DNA of 64,000 bases from an uncultured Veillonellaceae bacterium (GTDB lineage Bacteria > Bacillota > Negativicutes > Veillonellales > Veillonellaceae): contig CAMBIX010000003.1 in the NCBI GenBank assembly GCA_945867815.1, forward strand, positions 1-64,000, in the 5' to 3' direction. This document shows, piece by piece, positions 1 to 7,863 of this stretch (its first letter is position 1; every line of letters starts with the position of its first letter). The notes beneath the pieces are model-generated. The model ran no database searches. It saw only the letters and a list, made by a program, of their open reading frames with translations, and was not told the DNA's origin. A program made the position numbers and the translations under genes.

Positions 1-1888
1 CCGGATTGGTATTTGTTACAATGATGCTATTATCACTGGATTCAACCGTTGTCTGTCCAGCCTTCATCTGACCCAAGTTAACAGCATCGGTATCAGCAGA
101 ACCTGCCGCTACACCATGAATCTGGTTGCCGCCATTATTCAAACCAGCATTAGTTAAGGATACATTCTTACTTGCCCCTGCCGGACTAGTAATGGTCACA
201 CCGCCATCATTCATTGTTGTATTGCCGGTTGTTACCGACTTAGCGGTTACATCCTTGAAGTCCGGCGAATCAGTCATGCTGATACCTACCATGCCGTTGG
301 AGATGGTGGTCTTCAAGTTCTTACCAAGATACGTGCCGCCCTGCGTTGCACCGCCTGTGGTCTGACCGGCATCTGCTGCGGAGATGGACAACGTAGACCC
401 TAAAATCTGTTTGGTGCCGCCGACTGTATCATCGTTACCAGTTACGGTAATCGGTTTAACCATGACATTATACAACTGCTTGCCGTTGATAGCATCTGTC
501 GATGTTGCACTTACTTCACCAGGTGCTACATTAACGATCTGGCGTGTTAATTTCGGCTGCGTTACTTGTGCAGTCGACACAGTTTCCGAACCGACACTGA
601 CAACGCCAATCGTCAATGCACCGTCTTTTTGCGCATTGTCATAAGAGACTGTCTTACCCTGTGCATCGGTAACCTGGCTTTCTCCTACAGCAACTGCTTT
701 CTTATCCATAGAAGAGCTACCTAAAGCAACAGATCCTTCATTTTCAACATCTGCACCTACACCAATAGCGACACCATATTTAGCATTTTCACCTACCAAG
801 GAATTATGACCTAACGCTACGCCATCCTGTGCATAGGCTCTTGCTTGAAACCCGTTAGCAACAGAACCTGTTCCATCGGCTTTCGAATAAGCTCCGGTTG
901 CCGTTGCCTTATTAAGAGCCTGTGCATTATAGCCTAAAGCAGTAGCCAAATTCCCATCTACTTTATACCCAGATTGTTCGATTGTATTACCGCGCCAGTT
1001 CGTATGCGCGCCAGCCCCTAATGCTACAGAACCGGCTCCATACGTATCTGTGTGTGAACCTACGCCTACTGTTTGATCGTCATGAGTTTTAGCTTGAGAA
1101 CCTAAGGATACGCTGTTTCTTCCTTCCGCCAAGCTGCCGCTACCGATGGCCTGGCTCCAAGAGACGCCATCCTTAACAGTAGCAGCGCTACCGATAGCAA
1201 CGCCTTCTATACCGCCATTGGAAGCACCGTTACCAATAACAACGGAGTTAGTGTTGGTTGCTTTTGCTGTGTTACCAATAACAACGGAGAACTGATCTGT
1301 TGACGTATTCTCATTACCGATAACGATGCTGCGGTTTGGATCTCGTGCCATATTATCATCACCGATGACAATCGTCCGTCCTGATACTCCTTTCCCATTC
1401 ACCGGTGGCACCGTAGCATTATAATCTACCGTGTTTCGATTCCCATAAATGACACTGTCAAATGTTCGTTTGTCAAAATTCGTAGCCACCGGGATGCCGG
1501 CTGTATCCTTGGATAAAATTTCTTTATTGGCATTACCAACCATAACGGTATTCTGGCTAAGTGCCTGGTTGTTATTACCAACGGCTATAGTATTCGATTG
1601 ATCAGCTTTCGTGTTTTCCCCTATAGCAATCGCCCCATTGCCGGCTGCAATAGCGCCTTCACCGGCAACAATCGTATTATTTGTTCCGTTCGAAATACCT
1701 GAATTTGCATAACTTACACCGGACGCTGTCGCCAATAAAGCCGCCAACACCGGTGCCAATAAAGCGGTCTTCATCATCGATTTATGATGTACCCGTTTGG
1801 TTGTCTTCTGATTGCGGCGGGCAAACTCCGACGCAACAATATAACAGCCTTTAGCCTTACTCCATACAACATTATAGATCTTATTCAC
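1..1888 (-). CDS. Trimeric autotransporter adhesin (YadA/Hia-type), N-terminal part, runs off the left edge
   Basis: This is an outer-membrane trimeric adhesin of the type V secretion class; about 629 codons are visible and the C-terminal anchor lies outside the window. The frame is open from a GTG start at 1888 with a GGAGG box 7 bases upstream. Residues 1-25 (MNKIYNVVWSKAKGCYIVAS...) match the extended signal peptide region, followed by a hydrophobic signal segment ending near VSYA. Next come many head-type repeats of about 14 residues with cores such as AIGENT, VIGNGA, VALGAGA and VALGSSS, as in the left-handed beta-roll of YadA. A HIM/neck-like segment (TDAINGKQLYNVM) follows near residue 490, then stalk-like sequence and a second neck-like DAVNLGQM near the edge. 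Such proteins need BamA-type outer-membrane insertion, so the cell is a diderm. Plus-strand open frames inside this gene are shadows. Confidence 0.93.
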   Translation of the reverse strand, partial: MNKIYNVVWSKAKGCYIVASEFARRNQKTTKRVHHKSMMKTALLAPVLAALLATASGVSYANSGISNGTNNTIVAGEGAIAAGNGAIAIGENTKADQSNTIAVGNNNQALSQNTVMVGNANKEILSKDTAGIPVATNFDKRTFDSVIYGNRNTVDYNATVPPVNGKGVSGRTIVIGDDNMARDPNRSIVIGNENTSTDQFSVVIGNTAKATNTNSVVIGNGASNGGIEGVAIGSAATVKDGVSWSQAIGSGSLAEGRNSVSLGSQAKTHDDQTVGVGSHTDTYGAGSVALGAGAHTNWRGNTIEQSGYKVDGNLATALGYNAQALNKATATGAYSKADGTGSVANGFQARAYAQDGVALGHNSLVGENAKYGVAIGVGADVENEGSVALGSSSMDKKAVAVGESQVTDAQGKTVSYDNAQKDGALTIGVVSVGSETVSTAQVTQPKLTRQIVNVAPGEVSATSTDAINGKQLYNVMVKPITVTGNDDTVGGTKQILGSTLSISAADAGQTTGGATQGGTYLGKNLKTTISNGMVGISMTDSPDFKDVTAKSVTTGNTTMNDGGVTITSPAGASKNVSLTNAGLNNGGNQIHGVAAGSADTDAVNLGQMKAGQTTVESSDNSIIVTNTNP

Positions 1889-2416: not shown

Positions 2417-3757
2417 TTATACGGCAAAAAGACCTAATACAGTAGCTAGTGCCAAGGAAATCCAAGAAAGAATCCACATATATGGTGCGCAGTAAACAAT
2501 TAACTTACGTAAGGAGATACCTGCCAAACCGCAAGCTAAATACGTTGTGGCCGCCTGTGGCGTTACCAATACGCCGTAGTTCTTACCAATTAGCATAGCC
2601 ATAGACATACTTTCTGGACTAACACCAAAGCTCTGACCTACATTAATAGCCAGTGGCATTAAGCCAAAGAAATAGGAGTCTGTCCCTAGCAACATACCAA
2701 TTGGCACAGCTAAGAAGCCAAATACATCCTGCAGATGTGGCCCTAAGAAGTTAGGAATAACAGCTACTAACATTTCTGCCATCGAATGCATCATACCTGA
2801 TTTATCAAGGACACCTAAGAATACACCAGATGCCAATAAAATCATCGGCATCGATACAGCTGTTGCTGCATGCATTTTCATAGCCCGTGCCTGGTCTTTC
2901 GCCTTAGGGAAGTTAACCATTAAAGCTAAGGCAAGGCCTATCATGAAGGCACCATACATAGGAATCTTCGTAAAGCATAACAAGGCGATAACCCCTAAAG
3001 TAAGCAATAAGTTAAACCAGAACATCTGTGGTTTTTTCATAAACTTAGCATCTTCTTCAGACAACTGGTCATCAGCAGAAATTTCTTCATTAGATGTAAC
3101 CATCATAGCTGCTTTACTACCTGGTACCGGCACAATACCAGCACCACGCCGTTTTTCTACAATCCCCATATACACAGCAAAAGCAAGGTTAACTAAACAG
3201 CCTACAATCTGTAATGGGATTAATTTATGCCAAATAATATTAACGTCAACGCCCAATACAACGCCTGTACGAGCAACTGGACCGCCCCAAGGCATTAAGT
3301 TCATAACACTGAAAGCCGCCCCGATAAGACATACCAAAACAACAGGGCGCATATGCATCTTTTTATAAATAGGAAGCATAGCTGGAATAGTAATCAACAT
3401 AGTAGCTGCCAAAGCCCCATCCAAATGGGAAATGGTAGCCAAAATCATAGTTGATACCGTAACCATAATAGTGTTATTACCAGCTTTTTTTACCAGGAAA
3501 TTAACCAATGGATCAAATAAGCCCAAATCACTCATCATGGAGAAATAAATAATTGAGAAAATAAATAATACCGCTGTTGACCAAGTAACACCAACGCCTG
3601 TTTTCATAAAGCCAAAAATTTCCGCTGGAGAGTAGCCCGCAATAAGCGCGGCAATGATTGGTACAAAAATGAACAACGGTACTGGCTGTCCTTTACCAGA
3701 TACAAGGGCTGCTACGATGACAATAACCATCAAAGCGCCAATAATCCCTAAAAACAT
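2417..3757 (-). CDS. CitMHS-family citrate (metal-citrate/proton) transporter
   Basis: Inner-membrane symporter of 446 residues, the usual length for the CitMHS family, which takes up citrate complexed with a divalent metal or with protons. It shows about 11-12 hydrophobic segments, a long charged central loop (about residues 215-245) and family-like stretches such as SHLDGALAATM, LMPWGGPVARTG and GTDSYFFGLMPLA. The start has a strong GGAGG box. It follows citF by about 250 bp on the same strand, so it most likely supplies substrate to the neighbouring citrate lyase. The family is clear; whether the substrate is Mg-, Ca- or another metal-citrate cannot be read from the sequence. Confidence 0.9.
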   Translation of the reverse strand: MFLGIIGALMVIVIVAALVSGKGQPVPLFIFVPIIAALIAGYSPAEIFGFMKTGVGVTWSTAVLFIFSIIYFSMMSDLGLFDPLVNFLVKKAGNNTIMVTVSTMILATISHLDGALAATMLITIPAMLPIYKKMHMRPVVLVCLIGAAFSVMNLMPWGGPVARTGVVLGVDVNIIWHKLIPLQIVGCLVNLAFAVYMGIVEKRRGAGIVPVPGSKAAMMVTSNEEISADDQLSEEDAKFMKKPQMFWFNLLLTLGVIALLCFTKIPMYGAFMIGLALALMVNFPKAKDQARAMKMHAATAVSMPMILLASGVFLGVLDKSGMMHSMAEMLVAVIPNFLGPHLQDVFGFLAVPIGMLLGTDSYFFGLMPLAINVGQSFGVSPESMSMAMLIGKNYGVLVTPQAATTYLACGLAGISLRKLIVYCAPYMWILSWISLALATVLGLFAV

Positions 3758-4007: not shown

Positions 4008-5558
4008 TTAGTCTAATGGTTTACGAACAACGTCGATAATAGAGCCATCACGATATTCAACGATAGCTACGATATCTTCGTCTTTATCGCTAACTTTAAT
4101 ATCTTCTGGTTTACCTACACGGTCATAAGCCATTTTCTGCAATTCTTCAATTGTAAAGATTGGCAAATCAGAACCTTGTAATTTTTCAATTAAATCCTGA
4201 CGAGCTGGATTAATAGCTAACCCACGTTCTGTTACGATAACATCAACAGAACTACCTGGTGTGATAACCGTCTGTACATGATCACGAACCATTGGCAAAC
4301 GACCACGAATTAATGGGCAAGTAATAACTGTTACTTTAGCACCAGCAGCTGTATCACTATGACCACCAGAAGCACCCATCAATACACCATTAGAATCAGT
4401 CATACAGTTAACATTAAAATCTGTATCTACTTCAGTAGCACCTAAGAACACCACATCTAAATGATTAACCATGCAGTCTGTCCAAGGATTAGCATACATA
4501 GAGGCACTCATTTCAATATGATTTGGATTGTTGTGCAAGGAAGCAGCTGCTGCTGTATCAAATGTCTGCGTATCATATACAGCCTTAATCAACCCTTCTT
4601 CTAGCATGCCAGCTAATACACCTGTAGCACCGCCAACACCAAAACCACCAACAACGCCTTTTGCTTTTAATTTTTCACTAATATTCTTAGCCACAGCCAA
4701 TGGAGCCCCACCAGCACCTAACTGGAAGGAGAAGCCTTCTTCAATAATGCCCGCTTCATCTAAGAACTGAGCTGCCATTTCAGCAATTTTAAGTTGTACT
4801 GGATTACGAGTAATGCCAATAGCACCAGAGGCAATGCCGTTCGGATCACCAATTTCTTCAACGGCTACCACATAATCAACGTTAGTCTGTGGAATGCTGT
4901 ACGGATATACATAATCAACCAAATTATCTGTAATTAAAACGGTCTGATCTGCATATTGTGCATCAACCATAGCATAACCAAGAGCACCACAAGCCGATTT
5001 ACCAATCATGCCTGTTGCATTCCCGCGAGGATCACAAGTTGGTACACCTAAAAAAGCTACGTCAATATGTACATCACCACAAGTTACAGCACGAGCACGA
5101 CCACCATGTGGGCGAATGACTAACGGCCGTTTTAAAGCACCTGGATTCTGTGTTAAGAATTTACCAAGCGCATCGCGAACACCTGATGTTTCCAAAGCAG
5201 TTACCGTGCCATCCTTAATCATATCGATTAAGAAATCATGGCAAGGAGACAAGGAACTTGTCGCAATCGTTAAGTCCTTAATACCTTTTTCATGGATACG
5301 GTCCATAACGAGTTTCATTACATAGTCACCATTACGGAAATGATGATGGAAAGAAATCGTCATGCCATCCTTTAAGCCTGTCTTTTCAATAGCTTCATCA
5401 ATAGAAACTAATACTTTACTTGTATGAGCTAGCGTCGTATGCATAGGACGACCAGCCCGTTTTGTTTTTGCTTCTAAAGCAAATTCCCCTTGATAGACTT
5501 CACGACCTTTTAATGCTGGAATAGTCAAAGGAATTTCTCGATTTACTTTATTTAACAT
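4008..5558 (-). CDS. citF: Citrate lyase alpha subunit (citrate CoA/ACP-transferase)
   Basis: Cytosolic alpha subunit of citrate lyase: it exchanges acetate for citrate on the thiol carrier to make citryl thioester. Length 516 matches the family (about 500-515). Visible family features include the N-terminal VNREIPLTIPALKGREVYQG, the SFHHHFRNGDYV segment, glycine-rich FQLGAGGAPLAVA and GGFGVGGATGVLAG, and a C-terminal ERGLAINPARQDL. It overlaps citE by 11 bp with a GAAGGAG box inside citE, so the two are translationally linked. Together with CitE and CitD it would split citrate to acetate and oxaloacetate in anaerobic citrate use. Confidence 0.96.
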   Translation of the reverse strand: MLNKVNREIPLTIPALKGREVYQGEFALEAKTKRAGRPMHTTLAHTSKVLVSIDEAIEKTGLKDGMTISFHHHFRNGDYVMKLVMDRIHEKGIKDLTIATSSLSPCHDFLIDMIKDGTVTALETSGVRDALGKFLTQNPGALKRPLVIRPHGGRARAVTCGDVHIDVAFLGVPTCDPRGNATGMIGKSACGALGYAMVDAQYADQTVLITDNLVDYVYPYSIPQTNVDYVVAVEEIGDPNGIASGAIGITRNPVQLKIAEMAAQFLDEAGIIEEGFSFQLGAGGAPLAVAKNISEKLKAKGVVGGFGVGGATGVLAGMLEEGLIKAVYDTQTFDTAAAASLHNNPNHIEMSASMYANPWTDCMVNHLDVVFLGATEVDTDFNVNCMTDSNGVLMGASGGHSDTAAGAKVTVITCPLIRGRLPMVRDHVQTVITPGSSVDVIVTERGLAINPARQDLIEKLQGSDLPIFTIEELQKMAYDRVGKPEDIKVSDKDEDIVAIVEYRDGSIIDVVRKPLD

Positions 5559-6480
5559 CTCGTTCAGCTCCTTCTTCTAATTCAACTTTAATTCCTGCAG
5601 CCCATGCCTTATCTACAACGCGCTGAGCTCGTACTACGATAGGACCATCAATCATCTTACCATCTACGGCAATAACACCTTTGTTATTACGTAACGCATC
5701 AGCATAGCTATTCAAGACTTTTACAGAGTGAGCGATTTCTTTTTCACTTGGAGTAAATACATCATGAATAATCTTAATCTGACTTGGATGAATACAAGAT
5801 TTGCCATCAAAGCCAAGAGCCTTAATGAATTCCACTTCTTCACGGAAGCCTTCTGGATCTTTTACATCAGAGAATACCGTATCAATAACACGAATACCTG
5901 CTTCACGAGCGGCTAATAAAATAGTTTGCCGTGCAAATAACAATTCTACAGCTGGTTTATTTTTAGTTGTACGAAGGTCAGCTCGATAATCTTCAGCCCC
6001 CAAGGCAATAGCGACTACACGAGGACCATGGCAGATTTCACGTACATTATATAAACCTTTTACGCTTTCAATAGCTACGATAATATTAATCGTGCCTTCT
6101 TCCCAACCATTGGCTTTTTCTACTTCTTCGATTTTCTTAGCTACTAATTCAACTTCCGATACATCTTCTGTCTTAGGCAAGCGAATCAAATCAGGTTTAG
6201 CTGGAATAATAACATCCATATCATCTAAACCATACGGTGTCTGTGTTGGATGATTGATACGAACAACACGTTCCCCTTTGAATGGCAATTTTTTTAGTGC
6301 TTCAGCTACCAACAAACGAGCTGTATCTTTTTCCGTTACTGGAATGGAATCTTCAATATCAAACATCAAGCTATCAGCACCGTGAATATCCGCACTGTTA
6401 ATCATTTTAGGCGAATTGCCAGGCACGAACATCATGGAACGGGACAAGCGTTTTTTAGCGTCTTCTGTTAATTGACTCAT
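5548..6480 (-). CDS. citE: Citrate lyase beta subunit (citryl lyase)
   Basis: Cleaves citryl thioester to oxaloacetate and regenerates acetyl thioester. Length 310 residues, slightly longer than the usual 290-305. The HpcH/HpaI aldolase fold is shown by SMMFVPGNSPKMI near the N-terminus, the acidic metal-site stretch DSLMFDIEDSIP (about residue 34), RINHPTQTPYG, ALGAEDYRADL and FDGKSCIHPSQI. The start codon overlaps the citD stop (TAATG) and the end overlaps citF by 11 bp, giving a tight citD-citE-citF operon. Confidence 0.96.
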   Translation of the reverse strand: MSQLTEDAKKRLSRSMMFVPGNSPKMINSADIHGADSLMFDIEDSIPVTEKDTARLLVAEALKKLPFKGERVVRINHPTQTPYGLDDMDVIIPAKPDLIRLPKTEDVSEVELVAKKIEEVEKANGWEEGTINIIVAIESVKGLYNVREICHGPRVVAIALGAEDYRADLRTTKNKPAVELLFARQTILLAAREAGIRVIDTVFSDVKDPEGFREEVEFIKALGFDGKSCIHPSQIKIIHDVFTPSEKEIAHSVKVLNSYADALRNNKGVIAVDGKMIDGPIVVRAQRVVDKAWAAGIKVELEEGAERDVK

Positions 6481-6749
6481 TAGGCCTTGCTCCCCCTTTC
6501 TAATGCACCAAGTACGCGGGCTTTAATAGTGTAATCCCATGCGTTCTTATCTTGGGCTATTACTTTAACGCCATCAAATCCAGCGTCAGCTACTACTTTC
6601 TTAATGAATTCTTCAATATGTTTACCATATTGATGCATAACCTTAGATGTTAAGTCCACTTCTACACCCGATGCGATTGGTTCTACCGTAACAAGTACGT
6701 CGTTCTTTTCATCGAATCCGGCTGTAGCTGCTTTCACTAACTTAGCCAT
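6480..6749 (-). CDS. citD: Citrate lyase gamma subunit (acyl carrier protein), lacking the usual carrier serine
   Basis: Small acyl-carrier subunit of citrate lyase, 89 residues. I chose the ATG at 6749 (AAAGGATAGGCAT box) rather than an upstream in-frame start at 6773. In the family the serine of an AGTLESGD-type motif (Ser14 in Klebsiella) is esterified with the phosphoribosyl-dephospho-CoA arm. Here the aligned stretch reads TAGFDEKNDVLVTV: lysine stands where the serine should be and no serine is close by. The rest of the fold is recognisable (EVDLTSKVMHQYGKHIEEFI, then DYTIKARVLGALERG). The genes that make and attach the arm (citG, citX) and the ligase citC are not in this window. The subunit may be structural while free CoA thioesters are used; see findings. 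Confidence 0.88.
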   Translation of the reverse strand: MAKLVKAATAGFDEKNDVLVTVEPIASGVEVDLTSKVMHQYGKHIEEFIKKVVADAGFDGVKVIAQDKNAWDYTIKARVLGALERGSKA

Positions 6750-6975: not shown

Positions 6976-7863
6976 TTAAGTTTGTGGTATACGATGCTTA
7001 TAATATTCTAAAACATACTCAATAAAAGTACGTACTGCTGGTAACTGCATGCTTACTTTATCATCATAATATAGATATGTTGGTCTCGTTAAAGGCTGCC
7101 CTTGGCTATCAAAAATAGGCTCAATATAAATACCTTCATCACGGCAACTGCCAAGACCCATATAAGGTAAAATTGACCAACCTAAGCCTTCTCGTATAAA
7201 ATGGCGACAAGTAACCATAGAATCAAGTTCCATAGCTGACTGGGTACCTGCTGGCAAGTTTTCACTACACCAATTATCAAAGACCGTTTGTATAGATGGA
7301 TCCGTACGATACTGTATCAAGGGACGCTTAGATAACTCTTCATGGCTAATCTTATCCTTATTAGCTAAGCAATAAGGTTCATCTAGCAAGAAAACCTGTT
7401 TGCCCTGTCCGCTATAAGCACCACGTGCAATAGCAACATTTACCTCACCAGTATTATACATCTTTTGAATTTGCTGACTATACCTAGTCTTTACCTGAAT
7501 ATGAATCTTAGGATATTTAGCTGTAAACGAATGCAAAAGAACAGGCAATTCATAATCAGCGAAATTAATAGACGCCCCAATCTTCAATGTTCCACTAACT
7601 TCACCCGTTAGTTGTCCCATAGACTGCCGCATCAATTCCGTTTCCTGCACCATTCGCTGGCAATACTCATAGAAAACTTCACCTTGCGGCGTCAAAGTCA
7701 TTCCATCATTGGTACGAAGCAATAAAGGACAATCCATTTCCTCTTCCATATGCCGCAAACGATAACTCAACGCCGGTTGCGATAAAAACAACTTCTCCGC
7801 CGCCCGCGTTATATTCCCTTCTGTTACCACCGTGATAAATGTATGCCATTCCTTTTCGTCCAT
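6976..7863 (-). CDS. LysR-family transcriptional regulator, probable activator of citDEF
   Basis: 295 residues, standard LysR length. Residues 1-60 form the winged HTH (FITVVTEGNITRAAEKLFLSQPALSYRLRHMEEEM), followed by the periplasmic-binding-like effector domain (GASINFADYELPVLL onward, LGWSILPYMG near the end). It lies directly upstream of citDEF in the same orientation, separated by a terminator and a promoter holding a LysR-like palindrome. It is therefore a likely citrate-responsive regulator (inference; the effector cannot be read from sequence). Confidence 0.93.
   Translation of the reverse strand: MDEKEWHTFITVVTEGNITRAAEKLFLSQPALSYRLRHMEEEMDCPLLLRTNDGMTLTPQGEVFYEYCQRMVQETELMRQSMGQLTGEVSGTLKIGASINFADYELPVLLHSFTAKYPKIHIQVKTRYSQQIQKMYNTGEVNVAIARGAYSGQGKQVFLLDEPYCLANKDKISHEELSKRPLIQYRTDPSIQTVFDNWCSENLPAGTQSAMELDSMVTCRHFIREGLGWSILPYMGLGSCRDEGIYIEPIFDSQGQPLTRPTYLYYDDKVSMQLPAVRTFIEYVLEYYKHRIPQT

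Follow-up and report, generated by a model that had tools for sequence, protein, structure and literature searches.

Lysine in place of the carrier serine in a Veillonellaceae CitD: a candidate citrate lyase without a covalent arm

The citrate lyase operon in a 64,000-nucleotide stretch of DNA from an uncultured Veillonellaceae bacterium (hereafter the window) encodes a CitD subunit in which lysine replaces the carrier serine. An initial annotation had pointed this out for the single gene; the observation is confirmed here and extended to a conserved variant of citrate lyase that, judged from sequences and gene content, appears to be armless. The variant is best read as a citrate lyase that probably uses free CoA and works without a covalent arm, CitD being kept as a structural subunit. 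No earlier report of a serine-less CitD was found in the literature searched, which left subscription papers aside.

The carrier site of CitD and its locus

The genes citD, citE and citF lie on the minus strand in this order, their ends overlapping, and citD passes into citE via TAATG. The first gene, citD (6480..6749), encodes a citrate lyase gamma subunit of 89 aa, the N-terminal part of which is MAKLVKAATAGFDEKNDVLV... The protein passes the gathering cut-off of Pfam PF06857 (76.1 bits, 2.7e-21, cut-off 25.1) and the cut-off of the NCBIfam citrate lyase gamma model NF009726 (74.6 bits, cut-off 65), and lies slightly below that of TIGR01608 citD (63.3, cut-off 63.5). Alignment with E. coli CitD and about 100 relatives places Lys15 (codon AAG, 6705..6707, minus strand) in the column of the carrier serine, which is Ser14 in Klebsiella and E. 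coli CitD, and confirms that the serine is missing with Lys in its place. The carrier stretch reads AGFDEKND in the window CitD and AGTLESGD in E. coli CitD. In the same alignment neither Ser nor Thr occurs in loop 11-17 of the window protein, and the nearest following serine, Ser27, lies outside the loop. The Lys-type group to which the window CitD belongs has a second constant change, DKxAWDY instead of DKGALDC. The initial annotation had named a second, canonical CitD as evidence that would speak against it; profile searches across the window genome found no second CitD.

The operon resembles canonical CitDEF of Klebsiella and E. coli K-12 (b0613-b0618) in having the D, E and F subunits in the same order. 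A gene for a CitMHS-like transporter (2417..3757, minus strand) lies downstream of citF, which it adjoins in some relatives too; its product scores above the cut-off of PF03600 (98.7 bits) and below that of TIGR00784 (248 bits, cut-off 259.7). Upstream of citD, a LysR-type regulator is encoded (6976..7863, minus strand), and most Lys-type loci have such a gene beside those of the lyase. Its nearest NCBIfam model, at a score below the cut-off (193.9 bits, cut-off 400), is CcpC, which in Bacillus responds to citrate. The transporter gene is closely followed downstream by a 629-aa open frame (2-1888, minus strand), which runs past the window start and resembles the passenger of a trimeric autotransporter adhesin with VIGN-type head repeats.

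Maturation genes and conservation of the serine-less form

Canonical citrate lyase (EC 4.1.3.6) has a carrier serine in CitD and depends on CitX, CitG and CitC. The initial annotation had found citC, citX and citG lacking from the operon, and this absence extends to the whole window genome (1.97 Mb, 99.66% complete). Searches that recovered the E. coli controls gave no match for CitX and none for CitG in this genome, and the single match to the CitC family is a CoaD-like protein of 198 aa far below the TIGR00124 cut-off, so that a CitC encoded at another site was discarded as a candidate.

Co-absence of the carrier serine and the maturation genes, which had been proposed as a check, is imperfect across the Negativicutes. 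Among 380 genomes of the class, 130 have PF06857, and 118 of these were counted as having a lyase-type CitD after 12 had been taken as malonate decarboxylase only (nine read as MdcC and three same-genus neighbours). A CitX accompanies CitD in 79 of these 118 genomes, and every one of the 77 in which the carrier residue could be read (all except G081 and G273) has a Ser-type CitD. CitX is missing from the other 39, and 35 of these have only Lys or Thr at the carrier site (26 Veillonellaceae, G347, G019, G032, G049, G086 and G141-G144); the Thr case G086 is 77% complete and holds CitC. The remaining four, G020, G021, G030 (63% completeness) and G271, keep Ser, which the initial annotation had not anticipated. 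Because the genomes are related, these counts do not represent independent events. In G020 and G021 (L127 177-488 and L128 5970-6278) the retained serine lies in GTEDSGD and GTEESGD, respectively, CitX is not detected, and CitE has a His like that of free-CoA enzymes.

Within the Veillonellaceae, CitX and CitG occur only in G377 and G378, which are also the only ones among 20 family genomes tested to have CitC above the cut-off; both have an extra Ser-type CitD, on the same contig. G379 has two Lys-type CitDs and lacks CitX, CitG and CitC. In G077 and others, Lys-type and Ser-type lyases occur alongside each other together with CitX. CitG without CitX in the f5 genomes was considered as a partial maturation system and set aside; in those read, CitG accompanies MdcC-type carriers (GVTGSGD). 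Large numbers of CitD paralogues, up to eight each, are present in the large genomes G071, G074, G075, G077 and G293; they are Ser-type, some with Lys- or Thr-type copies alongside, which suggests several lyases with different substrates.

The Lys form is found in all 28 Veillonellaceae genomes searched and is thus more than a chance event. Its codon is AAA in 23 and AAG in five of them, and the median dN/dS of citD is 0.067 (152 pairs with usable dS), indicating that the gene is under purifying selection. Six genomes, among them V. seminalis and V. sp. R32, encode CitD and CitE in a single open frame; in the model of a fused protein, the linker is of low confidence.

On a tree built on CitE and CitF, the Lys-type clade stands apart from canonical lyases, and serine-less lyases fall into two groups, to be taken as at least two. 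The AWDY group comprises Veillonellaceae, Pectinatus, Megasphaera and some Sporomusa-like genomes, with two Ser and two Thr members among them, and the GALDF group comprises the f5 genomes of the class and L144. Lys is the usual replacement of Ser in at least two groups, which had not been anticipated either; in the close relatives G077 and G075 the carrier-site residue is Lys and Thr, respectively, and in L126 it is Pro. The starred branches of the tree demand at least three changes between Ser and not-Ser, independent changes being few and the genomes related; the order of the groups is ambiguous, and a single serine loss with reversals is conceivable. In a Peptococcaceae MAG, CitD (L193 5986-6255) has a carrier Ser (GTLESSD) together with the AWDY motif, and the two changes are therefore separable. 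An orphan CitD of G075 (L246 947-1276) has Pro at the carrier site (GTLEPND), and neither citE nor citF lies beside it within the 6-kb stretch. The citD gene of Pectinatus frisingensis MB174 is split over two contig ends (L194, L195), probably by an assembly break.

Partner subunits, the CitD fold and a free CoA cycle

The CitE and CitF subunits look intact, as had been noted initially. The transferase alpha subunit encoded by citF (4008..5558, minus strand) scores 665 bits against the equivalog model TIGR01584 (cut-off 501), active-site residues of both subunits are retained in the alignment, and the catalytic residues of the CitE superfamily, E43, D44, R74, E138, D164 and D278, are invariant in the lyase beta subunit encoded by citE (5548..6480, minus strand). 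The window CitE scores 342 bits against TIGR01588, below the cut-off of 443; the four Ser-type CitE of Negativicutes tested also fall below it (325-404), and the model was dropped as a discriminator.

The window CitE differs from canonical CitE at the position of E. coli Asn233, which is His231 (IHPxQ; codon 5788..5790, minus strand). The residue is His in all 25 serine-less lyases with a readable CitE, compared with Asn in 43, His in five and other residues in three of 51 Ser-type lyases. The five PDB relatives that were aligned (1sgj, 5ugr, CLYBL 5vxc, RipC 3qll and malyl-CoA lyase 4l9y) have His as well. CitX is missing from the genomes of two of the five lyases that combine Ser with His (L127 and L128), a sign that the change to His may come before the loss of Ser. 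Since only about three changes on the tree are involved (paired test, p = 1), this His appears to be a marker that provides supporting rather than statistical evidence. Lys25 of CitE was discarded as a further marker of free CoA use; it is not common to the PDB relatives. Free-CoA CitE-like lyases such as malyl-CoA lyase, CLYBL and RipC/Ccl agree with the window CitE in the catalytic residues and in the His of IHPxQ, and the window enzyme would likewise take acyl-CoA rather than acyl-carrier substrates. However, those enzymes work without CitD and CitF, and the window CitE lies far below the equivalog cut-off of RipC/Ccl (NF038242, 175.1 bits, cut-off 375).

In the AlphaFold model of the window CitD (pLDDT 91.8), the strands formed by residues 8-10 and 18-24 flank the loop that has Lys15 at its tip. 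The top match of the model by VIA-align is MdcC, the carrier subunit of malonate decarboxylase (5vit_C; Z 10.8, rmsd 2.1 Å, 85 residues); Foldseek, unlike VIA-align, ranks EF-G domains ahead of MdcC by E-value. Residues 1-87 of the model fall on residues 11-97 of MdcC, and these near-gapless ranges with an offset of 10 would pair Lys15 with Ser25, the attachment residue. MdcC has the same fold but differs in having a modified Ser, the maturation enzymes MdcB and MdcG, and other partner enzymes (PMC5534430). Ser25 of MdcC is at the tip of a loop that points to the transferase site, and some 10 Å separate it from the ribose 2'-OH in a modelled CoA (PMC5534430). A Lys at this position could be within reach of the phosphates of free CoA.

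The cycle that we infer has free CoA as carrier and citrate as substrate. CitF would form citryl-CoA and acetate by passing the CoA of free acetyl-CoA on to citrate, and CitE would cleave citryl-CoA to oxaloacetate and acetyl-CoA. Acetyl-CoA would re-enter the cycle and would therefore be a catalytic, diffusible co-substrate. Under this reading CitC for acetylation and CitX and CitG for attachment and synthesis of the arm are unneeded, which would account for their absence. CitD would remain as a structural subunit, joined to CitE in some species, and would perhaps grip CoA, with Lys15 at the tip of the formerly arm-bearing loop contacting the phosphates of the bound molecule. A more specific version, in which the change from Ser to Lys made a clamp that holds CoA non-covalently out of a covalent carrier, with a salt bridge between Lys15 and the 3'-phosphate of free CoA at the former attachment point of the arm, and did so more than once, is a tentative proposal that we consider rather doubtful. 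Dimroth and Eggerer (1975) reportedly found CoA thioesters to serve as substrates of isolated Klebsiella CitF and CitE. Characterised CitE-like enzymes outside citrate lyase take free CoA thioesters (PMC3832036). The initial annotation had suggested such a lyase with CitD as structural subunit, and this suggestion is the one best supported by the co-absence, the conservation, the CitE His and the CitD-CitE fusions, with citrate as the presumed substrate.

Alternative explanations and significance

A lyase of the same free CoA design could have another hydroxy acid, such as citramalate, methylcitrate or malate, as its natural substrate. A review states that citrate is not metabolised by Veillonella (PMC8757872), the families of adjacent transporters vary between genera, and the tree sets the Lys-type clade apart from canonical lyases. 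However, CitF scores above the cut-off for citrate lyase alpha, and the regulator is nearest to CcpC, although below its cut-off. Moreover, the neighbours of the lyase genes elsewhere include PEP carboxykinase, aconitase, and 2HCT and DASS transporters, a set that would fit citrate, the first three also fitting oxaloacetate. Citrate lyase genes are among those with altered expression towards stationary phase in V. dispar (PMC10100942). A different substrate is an unlikely alternative.

It is less likely still that unrecognised enzymes provide CitD with an arm at a different residue or with a different type of arm, such as a lipoyl-like one on Lys15. The predicted position of Lys15 at a loop tip between strands and the recurrence of Lys as replacement would suit such an arm, but the enzyme for the known arm precursor, CitG, is missing as well, the Thr and Pro found in close relatives and in L126 do not keep the Lys, and no new conserved Ser or Thr has appeared in the loop. 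A new attachment residue, which the initial annotation had left as an option, is accordingly unlikely.

The operon might also run in reverse, joining oxaloacetate and acetate to citrate in organisms that lack citrate synthase; indeed, neither the window genome nor any other Veillonellaceae genome tested has Si-citrate synthase (PF00285). However, the operon is located with transporters, and the single match to the aconitase family in the window genome is LeuC-sized, so that a full-size aconitase to use the citrate is lacking. Because this genome lacks both enzymes, a biosynthetic role is unlikely, and we regard the reverse direction as very improbable. A dying or non-functional gene set, the other option raised initially on the loss of the canonical carrier residue and now of the maturation genes, is rejected by the occurrence of the Lys form in 28 of 28 family genomes, the dN/dS of about 0.07, the intact catalytic residues and the recurrent in-frame CitD-CitE fusion, and is hardly credible.

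Textbooks present citrate lyase as a carrier-protein enzyme, and its arm costs the cell three dedicated maturation genes. If the free CoA reading is true, a conserved natural lyase without the arm would show that the enzyme can dispense with it and would open the purpose of the arm to direct study. The Lys-type proteins entered as citrate lyase acyl carrier protein in Veillonella and its relatives are probably not acyl carriers, and their annotation bears on metabolic models of Veillonella, a common genus of the mouth and gut.
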